Below, piece after piece: positions 2,746 through 5,154 of a stretch of DNA of 64,000 bases. The stretch is from Xanthobacteraceae bacterium (GTDB lineage: Bacteria > Pseudomonadota > Alphaproteobacteria > Rhizobiales > Xanthobacteraceae). The notes under the pieces are model-generated. The model saw only the letters and a list, made by a program, of their open reading frames with translations, made no database searches and had not been told where the DNA came from. Location: NCBI GenBank assembly GCA_029266425.1, contig JAQSWY010000007.1, positions 62,001 through 126,000 of the forward strand. The letters run 5' to 3'. Both the position numbers and the translations under genes were made by a program. How positions within the stretch are numbered: position 1 is the stretch's first letter; each line of letters starts with the position of its first letter.

Positions 2746-5154
2746 ATGGCAGGCAGGCCCGGCGCTGCGGCGCTAACCGAACCGGACGCCCGCACGGGCA
2801 AGCAGCTGGCGAGCGCCCTGCCCGCGGACGGCATCCCGGAGGGCACCATAGCGGTCGAGACCCTGCCCCTGTGCGGCCAGGAGAACGCTTGGCGCCGCGC
2901 GCTCGGCGAGCTTCGCCTGGAGAGCCGCCGCACTGCCGACGAGCCGTTCCGCTTCGGGCACGTCTCGGTGAAGTGCTCCGCCAGCGGCACCCGCTTCGCC
3001 TTGCTGCAATCGACGCCGCAGCCCCTCGCCCGCCGGCCGGCGAAGGATGCGGCCAGCCTCGCGCCGCTGCTCATCATCTTCCATCGCCATGGCCGCGGCC
3101 GCATCCTCACCGGCACCCGGGCGTCCGAATTCGCCGATGGCGACCTGTCGGTGTGTGACGCCGGCCAGGACTGGACGCTGGACCTGCGTGCCGATTTCGA
3201 GATCGCGGTGCTGGAGGTGCCGCGCGAGCGGCTGCTCGCCCGGCTCGGGCGCGCGCGGATCCGCCTGCCGGCCGTGCTCGGCGCCAGCATCGCCGCCGCC
3301 GCGGCGCGGCCGGTGATGCGCACTTTGGCGGGGAATTTCGATGCGCTGGACGGCGCTGATCTCGCCTCCGCCGAGATCGCGCTGGTCGAACTCGTGGCCG
3401 GCGCCCTGCTCGGTGAGGCCAGGGAGCCGGCCGAGGACGCCGTCACCCAGACCCAGGCGGCCCATATGCGCCGCGTGCTGGCCGCCATAGAGGCACGGCT
3501 CGCCGAGCCGACCCTCGCGCTCGCCGACATCGCCGCCCAGGAAGGGCTCTCGCCGCGCTATCTGCAGCGCCTGTTCGAACGCCAGAGCGAGACTTTCTCC
3601 GACTATGTGCGGCTGCGCCGACTGGAGCGCTGCCGGCTCGATCTGGTCGACCCGAAATACGCCGACCAGAGCATCGCCGAGATCGGCTTCCGCTGGACCT
3701 TCCGCGACCAGGCGCATTTCTCCCGCGCCTTCAGCGCCGCGTTCGGCGTCTCGCCGCGCGACGTACGCAAGGCGGTGCCGAGGCCCGCGGGGGACCGCCA
3801 GGTCCGCGGCCGGCCATTGCGGACTGTGCTGCCGCAAGCGGCGGTCCGCGCGCGGAAGGTGGAGGAGGTCGAGGCCCGCCCGCTCCACGTCCGCCCGGCC
3901 GGCGATGCCGGCCGGCATCACCTCACGGTCTCCAAGGATGTCGTGCATTGGGGCTATATGAGCCGCAACATCCCGCCTGCGCTGCGGGTGAAGCCGGAGG
4001 CGTGCGTCACCATCGAGACGCTGACCCAGCACGCCTTTGACGATCATGAGCGGATGATCAAGGACGATCCCGCCGCCGAGGAGGTGTTCCGCTGGACCAC
4101 TGAGGGCAAGGCGGTGGACCGCCGCGGCGCGGGGCCAATGAATGCCTCGGTGCTGGGACGTGGCGCCGGCGAAGGCTTCGGCGTGCATATCTGCACCGGG
4201 CCGGTTCATATCGAGGGCGCCGAGCCCGGCGACGTGCTGGAGGTCGAGATCCTCGACATCCGCCCCCGCCCGAGCGGCAATCCCGACTACCAGGGCAAAT
4301 GCTTCGCCAGCAATGCCGCCGCCTGGTGGGGCTACCAATATTGGGACCTCTTCGAGGCGCCCACGAGGCGCGAGGTGGTTACCATCTTCGAGCTCGATCT
4401 CGACGGCGGCGCGACCCATGCCCGCCCGGTCTATTCCTATCGCTGGACGCCGCAGACCGATCCGTTCGGCGTGCGGCACGAAACCATCGACTATCCGGGC
4501 ATTCCGGTGGATCACGCGTCCGTGGAGGAGCGCCACGGCGTGATGGCGCATGTGCGCGTGCCGATCCGCCCGCATTTCGGCTTCATGGGCGTCGCGCCCA
4601 AGGAGGCGGACATCGTCGATTCCATTCCGCCTGGCTATTTCGGCGGCAATATCGACAATTGGCGGGCCGGCCGCGGCACCACGCTCTATCTCCCCGTCGC
4701 CGTGCCCGGCGCGCTGTTCTCGGTCGGCGACGGGCATCTGGCGCAGGGCGACGGCGAGATCAACGGCACGGCGCTGGAGGCCTCGCTCACCGGCGATTTC
4801 CGTTTCCGACTCCACAAGAAGCACTCGGCCGAGAAGCCGTGGCTGAAGGGCCTCGGCTATCCGCTGCTGGAGACGCCGGACGAATGGGTGCTTCAGGGCT
4901 TCAGCTACCCGAACTATCTGCGCGAGCTCGGCCAGAACGCCCAGTCCATTGTCTACAAGAAATCCTCGCTGGATCTGGCCATGCGCAGCGTGTTCCGCAC
5001 CGCGCGCAAATTCCTCATCGACACTTATGGGCTCGACGAGGACGAAGCGGTCGCCCTGATGTCGATCGCGGTGGATTTCGGCGTGACCCAGGTCGCCGAC
5101 GGCAATTGGGGCGTCCACGCCATCATTCGCAAGGAGATGTTCGGCGCGCGGTGA
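2746..5154 (+). CDS. AraC-family transcriptional regulator fused to acetamidase/formamidase domain
   Basis: Single uninterrupted ORF (track 2563..5154; likely start ATG 2746 preceded by AGGAG). N-terminal cupin-like region; AraC HTH (LADIAAQEGLSPRYLQRLFERQSETFSDYVRLRRLERCRLDL...FRDQAHFSRAFSAAFGVSPRDVRK); C-terminal acetamidase (DRRGAGPMNAS, HICTGPVHI, IPPGYFGGNIDNW, GDGHLAQGDGEINGTALE). Confidence 0.9.
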   Translation: MAGRPGAAALTEPDARTGKQLASALPADGIPEGTIAVETLPLCGQENAWRRALGELRLESRRTADEPFRFGHVSVKCSASGTRFALLQSTPQPLARRPAKDAASLAPLLIIFHRHGRGRILTGTRASEFADGDLSVCDAGQDWTLDLRADFEIAVLEVPRERLLARLGRARIRLPAVLGASIAAAAARPVMRTLAGNFDALDGADLASAEIALVELVAGALLGEAREPAEDAVTQTQAAHMRRVLAAIEARLAEPTLALADIAAQEGLSPRYLQRLFERQSETFSDYVRLRRLERCRLDLVDPKYADQSIAEIGFRWTFRDQAHFSRAFSAAFGVSPRDVRKAVPRPAGDRQVRGRPLRTVLPQAAVRARKVEEVEARPLHVRPAGDAGRHHLTVSKDVVHWGYMSRNIPPALRVKPEACVTIETLTQHAFDDHERMIKDDPAAEEVFRWTTEGKAVDRRGAGPMNASVLGRGAGEGFGVHICTGPVHIEGAEPGDVLEVEILDIRPRPSGNPDYQGKCFASNAAAWWGYQYWDLFEAPTRREVVTIFELDLDGGATHARPVYSYRWTPQTDPFGVRHETIDYPGIPVDHASVEERHGVMAHVRVPIRPHFGFMGVAPKEADIVDSIPPGYFGGNIDNWRAGRGTTLYLPVAVPGALFSVGDGHLAQGDGEINGTALEASLTGDFRFRLHKKHSAEKPWLKGLGYPLLETPDEWVLQGFSYPNYLRELGQNAQSIVYKKSSLDLAMRSVFRTARKFLIDTYGLDEDEAVALMSIAVDFGVTQVADGNWGVHAIIRKEMFGAR

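Follow-up and report, generated by a model that had tools for sequence, protein, structure and literature searches.

We found that a single gene at positions 2746–5154 (+ strand) of a 64,000 bp stretch of contig JAQSWY010000007.1, from a Xanthobacteraceae bacterium, encodes both an AraC-type regulator and an acetamidase/formamidase of the FmdA/AmdA family. This whole stretch is referred to below as the window. The frame is open throughout, with zero stops, and yields a protein of 802 amino acids in which an AraC-type sensor, an AraC helix-turn-helix (HTH), a linker and a full-length amidase follow one another. We lean towards the reading that this protein is a bifunctional local regulator with an attached competent amidase, which would control an exported amidase encoded divergently to it and couple its regulation to turnover. 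The fusion itself, its age and spread, its intact conserved residues, its linkage to amidase genes and a DNA motif shared between loci are all read from sequence.

The N-terminal sensor and dimerisation domain (AraC_binding_2) lies at 2842–3420, approximately residues 33–225 by Pfam and the structural model, with a Pfam match above the curated cut-off at residues 48–222. It is followed by the AraC double HTH DNA-binding domain (HTH_18; 3529–3771, residues 262–342), which scored 67.9 bits in Pfam against a cut-off of 33.6 and is thereby assigned to the AraC/XylS type. The complete acetamidase/formamidase domain (3913–5151) matched FmdA_AmdA (PF03069) with 100.8 bits against a cut-off of 27, the best stretch being residues 626–784. 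All three domains are on the + strand. In an AlphaFold2 model of the fused protein (mean predicted local distance difference test score 82.6) the AraC part matches CuxR (5nla) and the amidase part matches PDB 3b9t as a whole PF03069 fold (template modelling score 0.93), and by sequence the amidase also aligns with 3b9t over its full length (E = 7e−165). The initial annotation, made from the letters of the sequence alone, had described an AraC regulator and a full amidase in one reading frame, and the open frame, the Pfam matches, the full-length alignments, the match to 3b9t and the homologues described below all bear this out. The start codon is uncertain: an alternative in-frame ATG at 2563 would give a fused protein of 863 amino acids. 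In a homologue of 87% identity (P0002) the start is at the equivalent of 2746, and for most homologues the alignment begins only at approximately residue 34; on these alignments a start at 2563 appears less likely than one at 2746.

The same architecture was found in many other genomes. Both HTH_18 and the amidase domain are present in all of the best 120 homologues listed, which with few exceptions are close to full length, and many are named “acetamidase/formamidase/AraC-like DNA-binding protein” or “acetamidase/formamidase family protein”, which answers the earlier question of whether such a fusion was already catalogued. Full-length fusions were present in about 10 of the 298 genomes drawn from the order and in 28 of 30 genomes of the genus, and a scan of named genomes found 52 fused loci across Alpha-, Beta- and Gammaproteobacteria. 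Fourteen plasmid records, including those of Sinorhizobium, Rhizobium, Paraburkholderia and Variovorax, span at least 80% of the fused protein in one place; annotated plasmid copies are mostly labelled plain acetamidase/formamidase. Judging from these sequences, many bacteria of soil and water carry the fusion next to amidase genes and, in a large number of them, the source genome included, also next to the candidate DNA site described below. Broken fusion frames were rare. It should be noted that in one Novosphingobium locus (L086, about position 9476) the amidase part is split over two frames, possibly through a sequencing error or because the copy is decaying, and that in one member of the genus (L140, G1015) a TAG lies within the fused frame.

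Conservation within the fused proteins is highest in the amidase, with 91 of 411 columns invariant and a mean pairwise identity of 65%, against 54% for the HTH and 30% for the N-terminal sensor domain, which is the least conserved folded part. Such extreme conservation suggests that the amidase has an important role. H429, D432, H481, H610, D637, D662, H664, D669, E671, E678, D777, Q782 and H791 are among the columns kept in 98–100% of the 65 fused domains, the columns considered being those conserved among stand-alone amidase relatives of the long as well as the short type. The conserved His, Asp and Glu residues of the FmdA/AmdA family, putatively metal-binding or catalytic, are therefore retained, as the initial annotation had stated of the family motifs, with the exception of H428, which is replaced by Q. 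The idea that the fused amidase is a dead pseudo-enzyme was unsupported, as the conserved residues are retained.

The linker between the two halves (3787–3909, + strand) is probably disordered at residues 348–377, where confidence in the model is low, and contains an RGRP motif (3805–3816, + strand). This motif takes the form RGxP approximately 10–20 residues past the HTH in all 63 aligned fused proteins, and is also found in 118 of the 119 retrieved proteins longer than 700 amino acids, while none was seen in the C-terminal tails of unfused AraC relatives. RGxP in the linker is a new observation and is specific to the fused proteins. Its third residue is variable (K, L, M, W, C and others) and an interpretation of RGRP as a strict AT-hook was dropped.

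A stand-alone FmdA/AmdA amidase gene (814–2265, − strand; Pfam, NCBIfam and alignment) lies divergent to the fused gene and is its probable target. Its product carries a twin-arginine motif (ERRGFLKS) at the N-terminus together with a TAT_signal_seq match, and is 61% identical to the fused amidase over the whole length of the latter (residues 390–800, nucleotides 3913–5145). A second FmdA/AmdA gene was found in 40 of the 52 named fused loci (27 short and 13 long), nearly always within about 5 kb. In the intergenic region shared by the two genes of the window, motif discovery and a matrix scan identified the candidate operator GGCATATTTTTGTGCGCGCAG (2494–2514, + strand; core at 2495–2510), about 230 bp from either start codon. 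A 21 bp motif common to six divergent intergenic regions scored 130.6, compared to 103.0 ± 2.4 in block-shuffled sequence, and when each locus was left out in turn it ranked first in five of the six and second in the sixth. The core ACAAGTTNTTGTGCGC, allowing up to two mismatches, matched 37 times across 80 loci, compared to an average of 1.2 and a maximum of 6 for shuffled patterns; the count of 37 is partly circular as the core was derived from matches in the same 80 loci. These matches lie mostly just upstream of the amidase operon or of the fused gene, and are also found at the loci of unfused AraC relatives.

Three later tests are free of this circularity. An exact copy of the core was present in 8 of 8 genus-mate loci fetched later, which are closely related to each other; in 20 loci of stand-alone amidases with no fused gene nearby, the best motif score was at most 9.1 bits, compared to 28.9; and with a matrix derived from loci other than the first six, window positions 2495–2510 ranked first of 127,970 positions (64 kb), scoring 15.6 against 10.3 for the next. 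A scan of 2200–2860 for sigma-70 promoters and terminators found none. We propose ACAAGTTNTTGTGCGC as a conserved candidate operator, new here, and because it lies in the shared intergenic region, control of the divergent amidase by the fused regulator is likely, as the initial annotation had suggested for this paralogue.

If our reading is correct, the AraC half would bind the conserved operator at about 2494–2514 and control the divergent Tat (twin-arginine translocation)-exported amidase, and probably its own gene too, with an amide or related nitrogen compound as the trigger. The amidase half would be a catalytically competent cytosolic enzyme tethered to the regulator, most likely acting on the inducer or on the inducer's product, so that turnover would be coupled to regulation. 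DNA binding, activation, catalytic activity, substrate and coupling are all inferred. A number of observations weigh against this reading. Position 428 is Q in 38 of the 65 fused domains, including that of the window, and H is nearly invariant there in stand-alone enzymes. No second amidase was found within the examined stretch at 12 of the 52 fused loci, and the motif was not found near the fused gene at several Rhizobium and Variovorax plasmid loci. The window's own copy has three mismatches to the core and, at three mismatches, the core is not enriched in the source genome (72 matches vs 135 in the control). Finally, the same motif is present where unfused AraC relatives lie next to amidase operons, with no amidase fused to them, so that regulation in that lineage apparently does not require the amidase; together with the N-terminal sensor, these relatives would argue against the amidase being indispensable.

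These observations bear on the alternatives as well. It is possible, if doubtful, that the fusion does nothing more than co-express a regulator with a cytosolic catabolic amidase, the N-terminal domain sensing and the amidase having no regulatory role. This would suit some plasmid loci, where the fused gene sits inside a catabolic operon between amidase and RidA genes, and loci where the fused amidase is the sole one seen, for example beside a tripartite ATP-independent periplasmic (TRAP) transporter and gamma-glutamyltranspeptidase; however, a second amidase is usually present, so that a further catabolic copy seems redundant, and the fusion has stayed intact, with few broken frames, across a wide range of Proteobacteria. 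We consider rather unlikely a strict trigger enzyme, in which the amidase active site is the sensor, its occupancy by substrate or product alters DNA binding and the N-terminal domain only dimerises. The high conservation of the amidase relative to the N-terminal domain, the confinement of RGxP to fused proteins and position 649, where all 65 fused domains have L and 93–98% of stand-alone relatives have Y, would all fit such a mechanism, but L at 649 is also found in other FmdA/AmdA members of solved structure, the fused protein retains a normal AraC sensor domain, and both the motif and the amidase linkage are seen in unfused relatives which have no amidase module. The proposal in the initial annotation that the amidase acts as a ligand sensor or trigger enzyme is, given this N-terminal domain and these unfused relatives, not established. 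It is similarly improbable that the fused proteins represent a trigger-enzyme family, widespread and so far undescribed, whose active amidase would act as the sensor of the AraC-type regulator, with substrate occupancy and turnover signalled through the RGxP linker so as to switch binding to an ACAAGTTNTTGTGCGC operator and with it the local amide or nitrogen catabolic operon. As for an assembly or frameshift artefact which joined two genes, there is almost no chance that this is the explanation: nothing was found in its favour and it is refuted by the many full-length homologues that unrelated genomes and plasmids carry, which also exclude a frameshift of the kind that the initial annotation had named as able to overturn the fusion.

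Returning to the fused proteins themselves, we examined their origin by phylogeny. A maximum-likelihood tree was built from 114 amidase domains, 65 of them fused. All 65 fused domains fell on one side of a branch (Shimodaira–Hasegawa-like approximate likelihood ratio test 95), and the long stand-alone enzymes, including the product of 814–2265, fell outside this clade. The tree thereby rejects the idea that the fused amidase was derived from the neighbouring one, which is a partner and not a parent. As the fused domains group together to the exclusion of the stand-alone enzymes, a single old fusion event is the simplest reading and the probable one. The first tree of the AraC halves, which included four distant long-branch rows, had three changes of state, and two remained after these rows were removed; with the four excluded, holding the fused halves together gave a slightly better likelihood than a free quick search (approximately unbiased test, P = 0.53), meaning that one clade is not rejected. 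A word-based search with the AraC half alone returned at least 16 proteins, several of which were partial or still fused, and more distant unfused relatives surfaced elsewhere. The window's copy is about 61–62% identical to the closest genus-mate copies and 65% identical to that of Rhizobiaceae bacterium CPCC 101076 (G285, L041); the lower identity within the genus and the different neighbouring genes hint at horizontal transfer.

We also compared the fused protein to known families. Its best NCBIfam match is FeaR (NF007243) at 119 bits, below the cut-off of 199, and it is therefore not a FeaR equivalog; it shares the N-terminal domain (AraC_binding_2) and HTH_18 with FeaR-like AraC/XylS regulators, and differs from them by an extra amidase of 410 amino acids and the RGxP linker motif. 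Nor is it a member of the FmdA formamidase equivalog (NF045496), for which it scored 59.7 bits against a cut-off of 500. The closest solved relative in the FmdA/AmdA family is 3b9t, a Tat-signal protein from Methylobacillus flagellatus, which has the same fold, full-length domain and conserved residues, whereas the fused protein has a DNA-binding regulator, no export signal that we could see and L instead of Y at 649. Trigger enzymes and enzyme–regulator fusions include Ada (an AraC-type HTH with a methyltransferase), MocR (GntR with an aminotransferase fold), PutA and BirA, which likewise unite an enzyme with a transcription factor in a single polypeptide; in the window the enzyme is an FmdA/AmdA amidase, and its catalysis and coupling are putative. 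A literature search which covered few subscription journals found no paper on an AraC–amidase fusion or on a Rieske/LigB/formamidase pathway. The fusion, which public databases already list under automatically assigned names, is probably a regulator, as yet unstudied, which carries its own enzyme. The automatic annotation, mostly “acetamidase/formamidase family protein”, hides the transcription factor. Old and widely inherited, and with its operator predicted and target genes linked to it, this enzyme–regulator fusion offers a ready test case for a metabolic enzyme built into a one-component regulator, and a lead on the control of pathways for amides and related nitrogen compounds in Proteobacteria, including on plasmids of plant-associated bacteria.

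The genes neighbouring other fused loci include amino-acid-type ATP-binding cassette (ABC) transporters, RidA and dihydropyrimidinase, a TRAP transporter accompanied by gamma-glutamyltranspeptidase, or genes for a Rieske oxygenase, LigB, TauD and a TonB receptor, and point to amides and nitrogen-containing compounds in general as the theme of the pathways. In the window, translations read by eye suggest methionine-type (MetNIQ/NLPA) ABC transporter-like genes with two binding proteins at 5393–9668, downstream of which lies a luciferase-like monooxygenase (Bac_luciferase; 9725–11098). In Ancylobacter-type loci (L044 3136–7915, with equivalents in L043 and L045) the TRAP transporter and gamma-glutamyltranspeptidase genes are divergent to the fused gene, with an exact copy of the motif between them. 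Genes for a Rieske oxygenase, a short amidase and a LigB-type dioxygenase recur near the regulators in L084 (5590–7963), L097, L098 and L071, a recurrence which suggests a possible pathway for aromatic nitrogen compounds.
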